This document shows, piece after piece, positions 31,729 to 46,535 of a stretch of 64,000 bases of DNA. The position numbers were made by a program, and so were the translations under genes. The DNA lies in contig JABLXA010000004.1 of NCBI GenBank assembly GCA_013178415.1, positions 124,001 to 188,000 on the forward strand, read 5' to 3'. Position 1 is the first letter of the stretch; every line of letters begins with the position of its first letter. The DNA is from Bacillota bacterium (GTDB lineage Bacteria > Bacillota > SHA-98 > Ch115). The notes under the pieces were generated by a model, which was given only the letters and a program-made list of their open reading frames with translations, was not told the DNA's origin and ran no database searches.

Positions 31729-32490
31729 TTATCTATCCAAAGTTATTACACGAGCACGCCCCATCTTATCAGACAGCATGCCTGCTGGCACAGATAGAAG
31801 CGCATAGAAGAGGTTGAACAATGCGATTATGACTGGGATAATGGTGGTCTTAATTCCAACGTTTTGTGCCCGCAGGATAAGAAAAGCATCGCTGGAATTG
31901 CCAAGGGTAAATATCAACATAACGATAAAGAATAGCAGAAATTTCCCTTTGAGTAGGGAAAGATCCAAGATAAACCTGCCAGAGTTCCTTCCGGCATTAG
32001 GGCGTTCTTTAACGTAGAGGCCTGTCAATAATATCGTGGCAAAGGCGATGATGCCGGAGATCACGAAGATTGTTTTGAATCTAGTGCTATCCAGACGTCC
32101 CATCAGGACCCTGAGTAGGGCGAAGGTTATCAGTGGGCCCAAGAAGGACCCCAGGGTATCCAGCATACGCTGATAACCAAAGGAAAACCCCATCCTCCTT
32201 ACTAACGATGACCTGGCTACTAGAGCGTCCCTCGGGGCATCCTTCATTCCTTTACCGACGGCATCTACCAACCTGAATCCCAAAGCCTACCACCCCTGCG
32301 TGGTGATCGACAGAAATAGTCGACCTATCGCCGAAAGCAAGTAACCGATAAAAACCAGGCTCTTTCTCTTGCCAATGCTATCTGAAATGATACCCGATAG
32401 TATCTTGAAGATGCTTACTGCGGTGGTTACACTACCCTCGATCAGGCCGATTAATTCTTTATTAAGACCCAGTATCTGGGAGTAATTCGA
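31729..32490 (-). pseudogene. decayed MFS transporter
   Basis: Read on the minus strand, NYSQILGLNKELIGLIEGS and IFKILSGIISDSIGKRKSLV are followed by a frameshift, then GYLLSAIGRLFLSITTQGW, an in-frame TAG, and FRLVDAVGKGMKDAPRDAL onward. This is a major-facilitator efflux pump of the type with IGLIEG, SDxxGxRK and GKGxRxxPRDAL motifs. The first helix and the last four helices are missing. It lies at the downstream end of the fluoride-response gene set on the same strand, so it may be a lost member of that operon. Confidence 0.85.
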
Positions 32491-32596: not shown

Positions 32597-32998
32597 TTAT
32601 GAACCATCCAGATTTTCTTTTGCCGAGTTTCCCAGGCCTTTTTTCAAGACTGCATCTGCTATTCTGCGTACAACTGCAAATCGGTGTTTCTGGGCGCTTA
32701 TTACGGCACGAATCGCGTCGGTTGAACCTATTCTCGCCAGAGCAATCACTGCCTCAGCGGCGACATATGCATCACCATTGTCCAGTCGCTCGATTAAAGC
32801 TGGCACTGCCTGGGGGTTTCCGATCCGCCCAAGCGGCCACGCAGCCCGCCGGGCAGTAGCGCCATCAGGGGAAACGAGCGCAAGGATTAGTCTCTCCACA
32901 TATGTGCTCGGCTTATCGAATGCCCAGCCGCAGTATGGGCAGACTCTATCATTCTCAGAGACGGTCTTCCAACAATTGGTGCAAAAATGGGTGACCAT
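32597..32998 (-). CDS. zinc-ribbon and HEAT-repeat protein
   Basis: 133 residues from ATG 32998 (GAGGTA upstream); a longer frame from 33064 overlaps the GTPase gene by 22 bp and is also possible. The N-terminal zinc ribbon is HFCTNCWKTV...CPYCGWAF. Two or more HEAT/PBS-lyase-like repeats follow (ARRAAWPLGRIGNPQAVPAL, AAEAVIALARIGSTDAIRAV). HEAT repeats bind proteins. It is the last intact gene behind the antiporter, UspA and dynamin-like genes. Function unknown; an adaptor for the GTPase is a guess from position. Confidence 0.75.
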   Translation of the reverse strand: MVTHFCTNCWKTVSENDRVCPYCGWAFDKPSTYVERLILALVSPDGATARRAAWPLGRIGNPQAVPALIERLDNGDAYVAAEAVIALARIGSTDAIRAVISAQKHRFAVVRRIADAVLKKGLGNSAKENLDGS

Positions 32999-33042
32999 GA
33001 CGCAGCTTACCTCTTCTACGGCAGGTTGCTCTGTAAGAGCGC

Positions 33043-34815
33043 CTAGATCCCTGAGGATGCCCATTCCTCAATTGACAGAAAGGACTTTCTGCACTCCTCT
33101 ACCTGTCTATACTGATCTTCTAACTCTACAAGCACCCGCTTTACTTCTTCTTCGCTTTTATCCTTTTTGGAAAGGGCGTATTCGAGAGCCCGGCGAATTG
33201 CCTGAACTGTAGTCTCTATTTTCTCTTCAAAGGAGTACCTGAAGCTAAGAAAGCTCTTATTGCTGCGTTCCTGGAAATCCCAACGCACACGACCGCAGTT
33301 TCGGTCTACCTCCTCTCGGACGTCTTTCAATGCCCTATCAATAACTAGCCTGCGGCCAATATATCCGGGGAGAAGAGATAAAAGGGATGATGGCGCTATG
33401 GCAAGAAGCATATGGTCCTTGCCAAACTTATAATAGAAATTGCTTTCTGTTGTGAGGGATTCGACCTCCACAAACCCCTCCAGCTTGATATCAAAGAGTC
33501 CGGCAGATAATTCCCGTATACGCGCGATTACCTCATTGACCTGTGTAGTAAATCTCCGGAGGATCTTCTCAAAGAGGGCAGCTATCTTCACCTCTTCTTG
33601 CATTCGCCAAGCGTCAAAAGCGCCGGTAAGGGTTTCAACAACGAATGTCTCGATTTCTTTCACGAGCGCCCTCGCCGGAAGGTTCATCTTATCCTTTGCA
33701 AAGGCCGGAATCTTCTCTCTGAGCAAAGATACTTGGGCAATCTTAAAGGATTCAAGATCCTGCTCGACCGTCTGGATCAATCGATCCATCTCGCCTTTGA
33801 GGATGTGCAGGGCGTCTTCTTTATCTTGTAGTATTTGAACTAGATTATTTTCGAATGCCTCGATTTTATCCTGAAGCTCCATTACCGACATTTCGGCAGC
33901 CTTTCGTTCAAGCGCTAATAACCCTTTGAGCTCTGACGCCGCGTCCTTCCCGCGCCGTGCGGCAGCAGCAAGCGCAATCCTGCCTCTGCCTCCGGTCAGG
34001 AATTCAGAGAGCTCTTTTTCCAATTGCGGGAGTCCGCTTCTTTGTAGTGCATCAACATTCTCTGTCAGCTTTGCCTCAAGGGCGAGCCTGGCTGCGAGAG
34101 GGTAGAGCCTTATTTCATTTTTGCCGAGGGCTGTTTCGATGGAACGCCGTGAAAAAGCAAGGGATTCTTCTCTATCGCTGCCGTTCAGATAATCTACTTT
34201 GTTTAACACGAAGAAAATCTTGGGGACATATTCCTTGATCTCCTTGAGGTATTGCTCCTCAGCCTCGGTTAAGGGAGGGTCAACTGCCAATACAAAGATC
34301 GCGGCATCGGCGCTCGGCAGGAAGTTATATGCGACTTCAGTGTTGTGGCGATATAAGGATCCCACTCCCGGAGTGTCTACAAGGACTACGCCATCGGCAA
34401 GGTAAGGGGAAGGATGGACTATTTCTACATACTTAACCTCTTTTGTATTATTGGGGTTTTCTCGTTCTGTGATATAGAGAGATAATTCATCCAATGCGAT
34501 ATTCTTGGTTTTTCCATCATTGAAAAAGACTGTAGCCCCGAAATTCCGGCCATAGCGGATCATAGTAATTATTGAAGTCAATGGGACTACTGCGGTGGGT
34601 AGAAGATCTGCCCCTAAGAGGGCGTTAATGAGAGTAGTCTTACCCCGTTTGAATTGTCCCAAAACCACCAGATGGAACCGGTTTGACTCAAGTCTTTCCT
34701 TAACCTTTAATGCCCGGTCCTCGATCTCTGGATTTCCTTTTTCACGCGCGAGGGAGGCTATTATCTTTAGATTGTCAAGTGTGGACTTTCTCATTTCGGC
34801 ATAGGTCGCGAGCAT
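33043..34815 (-). CDS. dynamin-family GTPase
   Basis: 590 residues. The GTPase domain shows the P-loop GQFKRGKTT (residues 53-61), switch II DTPGVGS (about 147) and the G4 motif NKVD (about 206), followed by long helices with coiled-coil character, as in bacterial dynamin-like proteins that remodel or protect membranes. A hydrophobic stretch near residue 455 (MLLAIAPSSLLSLLPGYIG) may be the membrane paddle. GGTGGTG precedes the ATG, 16 bp after uspA. Co-transcription with a fluoride-riboswitch-controlled antiporter suggests a membrane-stress role. Confidence 0.88.
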   Translation of the reverse strand: MLATYAEMRKSTLDNLKIIASLAREKGNPEIEDRALKVKERLESNRFHLVVLGQFKRGKTTLINALLGADLLPTAVVPLTSIITMIRYGRNFGATVFFNDGKTKNIALDELSLYITERENPNNTKEVKYVEIVHPSPYLADGVVLVDTPGVGSLYRHNTEVAYNFLPSADAAIFVLAVDPPLTEAEEQYLKEIKEYVPKIFFVLNKVDYLNGSDREESLAFSRRSIETALGKNEIRLYPLAARLALEAKLTENVDALQRSGLPQLEKELSEFLTGGRGRIALAAAARRGKDAASELKGLLALERKAAEMSVMELQDKIEAFENNLVQILQDKEDALHILKGEMDRLIQTVEQDLESFKIAQVSLLREKIPAFAKDKMNLPARALVKEIETFVVETLTGAFDAWRMQEEVKIAALFEKILRRFTTQVNEVIARIRELSAGLFDIKLEGFVEVESLTTESNFYYKFGKDHMLLAIAPSSLLSLLPGYIGRRLVIDRALKDVREEVDRNCGRVRWDFQERSNKSFLSFRYSFEEKIETTVQAIRRALEYALSKKDKSEEEVKRVLVELEDQYRQVEECRKSFLSIEEWASSGI

Positions 34816-34831
34816 TTAATTCACCACCGGA

Positions 34832-35272
34832 TCAGTCTCCTTGGAGTGATTTATCCTTGATAACCAGCACTGAACAGGGGGCATACCTGACAATTGCCTC
34901 TGAGGCGCTACCAAGAATGTACCGTGCGATCCCACTCCGGCCCCGCGCCCCGACAATTATCAGGTCACAGCCTTCTTCTTCGGCAAAACGAGCCAGGGCG
35001 TCTGCCGGATGGCCTGGAATCACCCGAGTTTCGAGTTTAACACCTTTTCCCAGGGCCATCTCTCTGGCTTCGCTGAGCATCCTGTCATAGAAGTTGCGCG
35101 CATCCTCCAGCGCTCCATTTACCTCGTCACGAGTATCGGCAAATTCCGGGACATGGGCTACTGATACCGCGTAGACCCTGGCATCGTACTTTTGAGCCAG
35201 ATCCAGGGCGAAAGCCAGAGCCCCCCTGGCATGTTGTGAGCCATCATAGGCCAGTAGGATTTTTGTGAACAT
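34832..35272 (-). CDS. universal stress protein UspA family
   Basis: 146 residues. The Rossmann-like Usp fold is complete: KILLAYDGSQHARGAL at the start, CDLIIVGARGRSGIARYILGS (ATP-binding GxxGxxxxxxGS) and ending APCSVLVIK. The ATP motif predicts an ATP-binding Usp. ATG 35272 is chosen for the GGAGG site 9 bp upstream. It follows the antiporter by 17 bp, and its small size and position fit a regulatory partner of the transporter. UspA genes are among those known behind fluoride riboswitches. Confidence 0.93.
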   Translation of the reverse strand: MFTKILLAYDGSQHARGALAFALDLAQKYDARVYAVSVAHVPEFADTRDEVNGALEDARNFYDRMLSEAREMALGKGVKLETRVIPGHPADALARFAEEEGCDLIIVGARGRSGIARYILGSASEAIVRYAPCSVLVIKDKSLQGD

Positions 35273-35289
35273 AGATGCAAACCTCCATC

Positions 35290-36450
35290 TCATTTATCGA
35301 GATTTGTCTCCGGAGCCCCTTCAGTCACATATAGTTCCAGATCGGGCCTGAAGAATGCCTGAGCGATCATTGTCGGCACCACTGCGCTCAGGATGACGAC
35401 CGTTACAAGAATGGTATATTGGTTCCTGGTTATTATTCCATGCGTTAGCCCAAAGAGTGATGAAATCGTGCCAAAGGTGAGCCCGGTGGACATGAGCAGC
35501 GTAGTGTACATGCCCTCTCTAGGCACAAACTTGAAAAATCTGGTTGTGGGCCATACCCCAATGAATTTGGTGATTATCTTTACAAGCAGGGCCACTATGA
35601 TAACCCCTATGGCAGCGGCAACCTCTGGGAGCGAAACGAAAAGCCCGGCCTTCAAGAAGTAGAATGGGGTAAAAAAGGCAAACGCCATGCTACGCATACG
35701 AAAGAGCAAATTCCTTTCCCGGAGGAAAAACCCGGCGACGCCTAGGCCCAGAAGATAGGCCGGCAGCACAGCTTCGCTGTTGGCCATATTGGCAAGTCCG
35801 CCAAGAAGGAAGAGCAGCAGGAAGAGGTATTTGACCTCGAGCTGGCTGACCCTGTTGCCATAGACCTTGAAAAACCATCGTGTGAAGCGGGGGAGGAAAG
35901 CCAGGACCAGGGCAGTAACTCCAGCAAACAGGAGCATCCAGACGTTGAAATTCGCAAAAAGCAATCCAAGGGCTACAACTGTGCCCAGGTCATTAATGAA
36001 GCAGGCAGCCAGGATGATCTTGCCGATCTCGCTCTCGTTGAGCCCGGTCTCCACCATCACCGCATAGACCACGGCAACCGAGGTGGTGGATAGGGCTATG
36101 CCAGCTATCTCGGCCGCCTGGAGTGTCCATCCAAGTATGTAATACGCATAGGCAAAGGCTCCGAGGAACGGGAGGATAAAGGCGATTATCCCGATAGCCA
36201 TGCTCTCCTTAAATTTAGACCTGAGTACCCTTGGGTCTACTTCAGCCCCTGCCAGAAAGGTAAGAAGGATGCTGCCAAAACCTGCAAGGAAATCAACCCA
36301 GGGAGTCGTTGCAAGGCCCAGGAAGTTGCCGCCGATTACCCCTACCACGATCTCCACCAGTGATATGGATATGCCGGTCCACCCGGCAGCAAGGCCGCCG
36401 ACCAGAGCAAGCCCGAGCCACAAACTCGCCGTAAGCCAGGTGTTCACCAT
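35290..36450 (-). CDS. CPA2-type cation:proton antiporter under fluoride riboswitch control
   Basis: 386 residues with about 12 membrane helices, of the NapA/Kef membrane-domain type, without the C-terminal TrkA domains of Kef proteins. The ion site region reads ACFINDLGTVVALGL, an ND pair; in related families ND goes with electroneutral exchange and DD with electrogenic. ATG 36450 follows GGAGGG; the longest frame would run back into the riboswitch. The upstream aptamer (36566-36620) is a fluoride riboswitch, so the protein probably helps export fluoride or restores ion balance during fluoride stress. CrcB/Fluc and CLC-F are not encoded nearby. Confidence 0.88.
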   Translation of the reverse strand: MVNTWLTASLWLGLALVGGLAAGWTGISISLVEIVVGVIGGNFLGLATTPWVDFLAGFGSILLTFLAGAEVDPRVLRSKFKESMAIGIIAFILPFLGAFAYAYYILGWTLQAAEIAGIALSTTSVAVVYAVMVETGLNESEIGKIILAACFINDLGTVVALGLLFANFNVWMLLFAGVTALVLAFLPRFTRWFFKVYGNRVSQLEVKYLFLLLFLLGGLANMANSEAVLPAYLLGLGVAGFFLRERNLLFRMRSMAFAFFTPFYFLKAGLFVSLPEVAAAIGVIIVALLVKIITKFIGVWPTTRFFKFVPREGMYTTLLMSTGLTFGTISSLFGLTHGIITRNQYTILVTVVILSAVVPTMIAQAFFRPDLELYVTEGAPETNLDK

Positions 36451-36521
36451 AAATGATTTAGCCCTCCGTTTCGTTCTCCCAGGGAACTTAAGGCCGCAAC
36501 CTTGCGGTCTTGGGGGCAAAC

Positions 36522-36576
36522 CAAAAGCCCCTACCGCTCTCCCTGAAATCTCATCATGGTAGTCATGGTAGGAGCT
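36522..36576 (-). terminator. riboswitch-controlled terminator before the antiporter
   Basis: On the minus strand AGCTCCTACC, the 3' strand of the aptamer, can pair with GGTAGGGGCT (one G-T pair), followed by TTTTGGTTT. Aptamer folding and this terminator are mutually exclusive, so fluoride should allow read-through. Confidence 0.75.
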
Positions 36577-36620
36577 ATCAGCCTCGATATCAGGCATTAG
36601 GCGAGCTCCATCGCCGGTCG
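36566..36620 (-). ncRNA. fluoride riboswitch (crcB motif) upstream of the antiporter
   Basis: The minus strand reads GGCGATGGAGCTCGCC, a small hairpin GCCT...AGGC, then CTGATAGCTCCTACC. This matches the known fluoride aptamer layout (GGCGATGAGGCCCGCC, hairpin, CTGATGGCCTCTAC) with stem positions changed in a complementary way. It begins five bases after the stop codon of the DUF6062-like gene. Confidence 0.9.
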
Positions 36621-37304: not shown

Positions 37305-37324
37305 ATCTTCCCTCCTTTCCCATC

Positions 37325-37366
37325 AAAAAAGCTCCTACTCAAGGACATCGCCTTGGTAGGAGCTAT
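37325..37366 (-). terminator. riboswitch-controlled terminator before the DUF6062-like gene
   Basis: On the minus strand TAGCTCCTAC pairs with GTAGGAGCTTTTTTG, with an inner AAGG/CCTT pairing. The stem uses the aptamer's 3' strand and ends in six T, a textbook switch. Confidence 0.88.
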
Positions 37367-46314: not shown

Positions 46315-46334
46315 TTGATGAATAACGGCATCAT

Positions 46335-46535
46335 ATCGGGGTGGGCGACCAGGGAATAGGCAGCAGGAGCAACCTGTAAGCCAGCGGTCCCGCCACTGTA
46401 TCCGGGGAGCCTTTCTGCCGTCACTTCTTTTGACTATGAGGGAAGACGGGGAAGGTGGATCCTCCAATGATGATCCAGGCGATGATCCGGGAGCCAGGAG
46501 ACCTGCCCATCTCGTTTGCCAGATAACCTTCGGTG
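46335..46535 (+). ncRNA. cobalamin riboswitch
   Basis: The leader of the btu operon has the class-defining blocks AATAGGCAGC, AACCTGTAAGCCAGCGGTCC-like core with CCCGCCACTGT, GGAAGACGGGGAAGG, and the B12 box GCCAGGAGACCTGCC at about 46492-46506. The terminator at 46594-46632 follows. Adenosyl- or methylcobalamin should switch the downstream uptake genes off. Confidence 0.95.

Follow-up and report, generated by a model that had tools for sequence, protein, structure and literature searches.

A dynamin-like GTPase of a fluoride-linked clade in a riboswitch-controlled operon of a Bacillota bacterium

Results

In the window analysed here, a stretch of 64,000 nucleotides from a Bacillota bacterium (assembly GCA_013178415.1, contig JABLXA010000004.1, positions 124,001 to 188,000), the gene of a 590-residue dynamin-like GTPase (34815-33043, minus strand) lies in an operon behind fluoride riboswitches. 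Judged from sequence comparison, this GTPase is almost certainly a member of the fluoride regulon, and it appears to belong to a distinct clade of bacterial dynamins that is dedicated to the fluoride response, often without an antiporter. A first-pass annotation of this DNA had placed the GTPase in a fluoride-response operon. This assignment now finds strong support, with the GTPase genes of relatives from many families and phyla standing directly behind an aptamer of their own. For the locus as a whole we slightly favour a fluoride-induced resistance operon whose GTPase, coming from a fluoride-specialised dynamin clade, would protect the membrane.

Searching 398 genomes of the phylum with the 590-residue protein gave matches at E 1e-20 or better in 48 of them; aptamers were located in the 36 genomes with better matches and compared with 37 dynamin genes. 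Aptamer calls throughout are those of the Rfam model RF01734 alone; a regular expression, which found just 42 of the 62 Rfam hits, was set aside. A direct aptamer, on the same strand and at most 400 bp upstream, precedes 17 of the 37 phylum dynamins (at 17-166 bp, many with more than 50 bits), and a further 13 lie up to 6 kb downstream of one. Seven dynamins are without a linked aptamer; among these, G002, G169 and G244 are at contig ends, and in G370 an aptamer sits on the opposite strand of the same intergenic stretch. A sequence-based contig scan, unselected for aptamers, provided 46 named loci, mostly from other phyla. Among the 44 that were examined, the aptamer was direct in 24, at operon distance in 9 and downstream only in 2, while 2 loci were cut off and 7 had none. 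Linked loci come from Planctomycetota, Myxococcota, Nitrospirota, Calditrichota, Bacteroidota, Campylobacterota and two archaeal metagenome bins, although the two archaeal loci could be mis-binned. The gene-neighbourhood survey of this dynamin subgroup that the first-pass annotation had proposed reveals a recurrent placement behind fluoride aptamers. Three planctomycete loci (L045, L049, L052) carry two dynamins each, every one behind its own aptamer; perhaps these are heterotypic pairs as in Campylobacter.

Given some 2.4 aptamers in a genome of 2.7 Mb, a direct aptamer (same strand, at most 400 bp upstream) would arise by chance with a probability of about 2e-4 per genome. A fluoride aptamer is present in 34 of the 36 genomes with a dynamin of this clade and in 122 of the remaining 362 (Fisher p 4e-13). 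Related genomes do not count as independent, but the linked cases are spread over many of the phylum's family codes and over further phyla. A tree built from 84 dynamins (LG+G4, quick search) gathers all 56 linked ones in one 71-member branch (SH-aLRT 97), the rest of which consists of 10 unlinked members and 5 at contig edges, and all 13 dynamins of the same phylum outside this branch are unlinked. The boundary of the clade is approximate, given its long branches and a quick method that overstates support; the separation of linked from unlinked dynamins is independent of the fine branching.

Direct aptamers across families and phyla, together with the clade test, rule out that the GTPase is a mere passenger among fluoride genes. 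They also bear on the idea of a phage-defence dynamin, LeoA- or DynA-like, that hitch-hikes in an accessory island beside such genes. PADLOC models for LeoA (68 bits) and LeoBC (50 bits) do match, at superfamily level only. Yet there is a single aptamer-linked clade, and neither LeoB nor LeoC was found in the operon, where one dynamin stands beside antiporter, universal stress protein (Usp), HEAT and DUF6062 genes. A LeoA-type system was rejected on the level of the match and the absent partner genes, and a phage-defence dynamin seems most improbable to us.

The motifs of the GTPase are intact (GQFKRGKT, PLTS, DTPGVGS and NKVDYL for P-loop, switch and NKxD), and its dynamin-type domain is recognised by Dynamin_N (PF00350) with 100 bits against a cut-off of 27. 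Across 42 relatives 26 positions are invariant, among them G53, G58, K59, T80, D147, P149, G150, K206 and D208. The AlphaFold2 model (pLDDT 83.8) predicts a dynamin fold with a G domain and long helical bundles, in which helices 277-375, 381-441 and 484-587 make up the neck and trunk, and residues 442-483 form a tip of low confidence. The tip segment MLLAIAPSSLLSLLPGYIG has a mean hydropathy of 1.56, a value that is lower in many relatives. Top Foldseek matches of the model are IniA (E 2.3e-22), BDLP, the Campylobacter pair (CjDLP) and mitofusins; by sequence, the best match in the PDB is BDLP (2j68/2j69; E 1.6e-26, residues 30-437).

Intact GTPase motifs would also suit a direct gating in which F− itself triggers or jams dynamin assembly, with GDP and AlF4− or MgF3− mimicking the transition state of GTP hydrolysis; in dynamin-family GTPases, GDP-AlF4− indeed traps this state. 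Such trapping, however, would hold for most GTPases, and IniA is monomeric even with GDP-AlF4− (PMC6715688). We consider direct gating very improbable.

The operon runs on the minus strand in the order RS2 – DUF6062 – RS1 – antiporter – Usp – dynamin-like GTPase – zinc-ribbon/HEAT – (decayed MFS). The first fluoride aptamer, RS1 (36624-36562), sits just outside the coordinates of the first-pass annotation and scores 44.6 bits with RF01734, above the Rfam gathering score of 34. In its predicted expression platform (36516-36577) AGCTCCTACC is paired with GGTAGGGGCT, and a short T-rich stretch follows. RS2 (37411-37350) reaches 20.3 bits, below the gathering score (E 0.018 with 3.2 kb searched). 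A strong terminator, AGCTCCTACC...GTAGGAGCTTTTTT (37321-37364), recognised by fold and sequence, overlaps the 3' end of this aptamer. Counterparts of RS2 before DUF6062 score 28.7 bits in G001, of a sister family, and 25.4 bits in G302, of the same order. Because its position is kept in both genomes and the terminator overlaps the aptamer, RS2 is likely a degenerate or variant fluoride aptamer copy. Just upstream of it lies a promoter-like site with extended -10, TTGTTA-17-TATATT (37497-37469), a consensus match only, the position of which fits; promoter-like sites number 8 in the region versus 6.9 expected in shuffles.

Behind RS2 follows the gene of a 227-residue DUF6062 protein (37304-36621; PF19538, 199 bits). 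RS1 is followed by a CPA2-type cation:proton antiporter of 386 residues (36450-35290; PF00999, 132.6 bits; TIGR00932, 97.2 bits and thus below the cut-off of that model), a Usp of 146 residues (35272-34832; PF00582, 121.5 bits), the GTPase, and a 133-residue protein with a zinc ribbon (C-x2-CW ... C-x2-CG) and HEAT repeats (32998-32597; PF13646, PF03130). The last four genes had been described as a one-strand run without terminators between them. All four are in place, with 17 bp between antiporter and Usp and 16 bp between Usp and GTPase, and no strong terminator was found on the minus strand within the gene run. Nor was there any sigma-70-like site on this strand inside the run that could give the GTPase a separate promoter; such a promoter without a fluoride response was what the first-pass annotation had named as speaking against a fluoride operon. 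Over the region, the numbers of promoter-like and of terminator-like sites match the background. Between GTPase and HEAT gene a short space or an overlap had been left open. The space stands, at about 44 bp: 32998 is the most likely start, because an SD-like (Shine–Dalgarno) GAGGT lies upstream and relatives open at the same residue, whereas an overlap needs the alternative ATG at 33064.

The sub-threshold aptamer with its terminator and the DUF6062 gene go beyond the earlier description, as does a decayed MFS transporter gene (31738-32484, minus strand) with an in-frame stop and both ends missing. The latter is 89% identical to residues 43-291 of an intact 399-residue MFS protein encoded behind the HEAT gene in G302. 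Since the broken gene matches an intact one at the same place, the operon formerly closed with a transporter. Elsewhere in the same genome (contig C29; L114 10994-10933, minus strand) a stronger fluoride aptamer of 53.7 bits precedes a CrcB-cluster gene, which makes the operon one of two fluoride units of this genome. The window also holds a cobalamin riboswitch (46326-46524, plus strand, 56.9 bits).

Around the dynamins, gene maps display clusters of fluoride genes in which several aptamers occur. At a distance of up to 5 kb from 66 dynamin genes we counted HEAT (18), DUF6062 (16), DUF190 (13), antiporter (12), MFS (11), CrcB (10), enolase (10), Usp (7) and MutS-like (7) genes, and none of them is a constant partner. 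Representative neighbour proteins match enolase, CrcB, DUF190, MutS domain V, MFS and NADH dehydrogenase; enolase, CrcB, MutS-like proteins and the Na+/H+ antiporter are known fluoride genes (PMC2864571, PMC11139923).

These neighbours speak to a second idea of the first-pass annotation, namely that the antiporter needs membrane organisation, so that the GTPase would organise or assemble antiporter or exporters in the membrane. The two share an operon here, the order DUF6062-antiporter-Usp-dynamin is repeated in distant genomes (L093, L096, L097), and G001 (L079 8106-8190) retains antiporter and GTPase together in this order. Only the last Usp codons lie between them in G001; Usp was thus lost and the GTPase kept. 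However, antiporters are near only the 12 of 66 dynamins counted above, and elsewhere the GTPase mostly stands behind an aptamer of its own, with no transporter as a constant partner. This weakens the idea of an antiporter organiser, which we regard as distinctly unlikely; that fluoride stress harms the envelope, the alternative offered alongside it, is more likely.

The counts lend more weight to another explanation, in which a soluble, fluoride-related GTPase, together with the zinc-ribbon/HEAT and DUF6062 proteins, acts on a cytosolic target poisoned by fluoride rather than on membranes. HEAT and DUF6062 genes are the commonest neighbours, ahead of any transporter, and the GTPase is without a transmembrane segment. 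Its full-length resemblance to membrane-acting bacterial dynamins argues against a cytosolic machine, and we hold this main rival to be doubtful. As for the presumed partners, the zinc-ribbon/HEAT proteins form a conserved small family in fluoride clusters, with an N-terminal C-x2-C ... C-x2-C ribbon. DUF6062 features two C-x2-C / C-x2-H modules in the alignment and gives an all-helical model (pLDDT 84) for which no fold match was found in the PDB. By coordinates, it stands directly behind aptamers in about 20 loci of the phylum; unlinked paralogues exist.

In Bacteroidota clusters (L061, L062, L068), four successive fluoride aptamers head, in turn, a dynamin; a second CxxC protein with DUF6062, a helical protein and HEAT; CrcB with DUF190; and NADH dehydrogenase-like genes. 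Tandem MutS-domain-V proteins of about 500 residues are encoded behind aptamers in L102, L106, L107, L082, L088, L089, L090 and L044; in the last of these, from Thermoanaerobacterium saccharolyticum, the order is aptamer, two MutS-like genes, dynamin.

Discussion

Fluoride stabilises its aptamer and so prevents formation of the overlapping terminator. From this known riboswitch behaviour, F− bound to the aptamers of RS1 and RS2 would keep the terminators from forming, and the genes would be transcribed. The GTPase may then assemble at the inner face of the cytoplasmic membrane via its helical stalk and weakly hydrophobic tip (residues about 442-487) and, with GTP, tether, seal or remodel a membrane that is stressed by the influx of hydrogen fluoride (HF) and the loss of proton-motive force. 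The barrier against HF and ion leak could thereby be upheld while exporters and antiporter restore F− and pH. We give such a fluoride-induced protection of the cytoplasmic membrane about an even chance of being the role of the GTPase. The argument is one of analogy: DynA acts in membrane surveillance and clusters when the pore-forming antibiotic nisin is added (PMC8844932), IniA, which is induced by drugs, brings about membrane fission (PMC6715688), and HF reaches the cell interior through the membrane, whose structure and integrity change under fluoride stress (PMC11139923).

Several observations weigh against membrane protection. The recurrent partners, zinc-ribbon/HEAT and DUF6062, are not obviously membrane proteins. 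In the GTPase no transmembrane segment was found, and at its tip hydrophobicity is only modest in the window protein and lower still in several relatives. Furthermore, ten clade members are without a linked aptamer, among them those of three Candidatus Scalindua (anammox) genomes (L054, L059, L060) in which no fluoride aptamer was detected anywhere. With somewhat less than an even chance, we further propose a dedicated fluoride-stress dynamin of many bacterial phyla, possibly also of some archaea, that keeps the membrane intact together with a new zinc-ribbon/HEAT partner and DUF6062 and that, in the strongest form of this proposal, is in addition gated by a GDP-fluorometallate.

Cells are known to resist fluoride by export, by pH balance and by replacing the enzymes that it poisons. 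The link of a dynamin clade to fluoride aptamers across many phyla points to membrane remodelling as a possible part of the response, and if this is true, remodelling would join export and target replacement as a third arm of resistance. Fluoride would moreover be a natural inducer with which to study what bacterial dynamins are for, still an open question for most of them. Two uncharacterised families, the small zinc-ribbon/HEAT family and part of DUF6062, are likewise assigned to the fluoride response. This bears on organofluorine degradation, in which fluoride release limits cells (PMC11139923). The fluoride-linked clade is apparently an unreported, widespread part of how microbes cope with fluoride.

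Among known dynamins, Mycobacterium IniA (6j72) is closest in structure, being the best Foldseek match over some 600 columns, of similar length, and likewise built from a G domain and a long helical bundle. Stress induction would be shared as well, by isoniazid for IniA and, as the gene context suggests, by fluoride for the GTPase; to our knowledge, IniA has no link to a fluoride aptamer. The two differ in that identity in the structural alignment is 19% and that IniA is encoded in iniBAC, an operon that cell-wall drugs induce (PMC6715688). Nostoc BDLP1 (2j68/2j69) has the same architecture as the GTPase described here. BDLP is longer (about 695 residues) and its paddle is strongly hydrophobic, in contrast to the modestly hydrophobic tip of our protein. 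Bacillus subtilis DynA is also a bacterial dynamin, with a role in membrane surveillance under stress (PMC8844932), but is a tandem fusion of about 1190 residues compared with 590 here, and the NCBIfam DynA model gives the GTPase 77 bits, far under its cut-off of 1600.

On the side of the riboswitch, genes found behind RF01734 encode exporters, antiporters, enolase, Usp, MutS-like and NADH dehydrogenase-like proteins (PMC2864571, PMC5533749, PMC11139923). MutS, transporters and formate hydrogenlyase are listed downstream of the crcB motif (PMC2864571), and a tested fluoride operon of Enterobacter cloacae includes enolase and Usp (PMC5533749). Several of these gene kinds also adjoin the dynamins of this work. 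In contrast, a dynamin-like GTPase, DUF6062 and the zinc-ribbon/HEAT protein are not in the published crcB-motif gene lists covered here, to which that of Baker et al. (2012) does not belong. A combination of fluoride riboswitch and dynamin was not found in the literature searched, although the supplementary table of Baker et al. (2012), outside this search, may hold an entry. Papers with both "fluoride" and "bacterial dynamin" were, judged by title only, unrelated to the fluoride response, and the text of a 2024 review of microbial fluoride responses does not mention GTP. Within these bounds the literature is consistent with the expectation of the first-pass annotation that such a GTPase would be new behind fluoride riboswitches. 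The riboswitch-controlled fluoride operon is of a known kind, whereas the dynamin clade as its recurrent member is, as far as could be checked, new.

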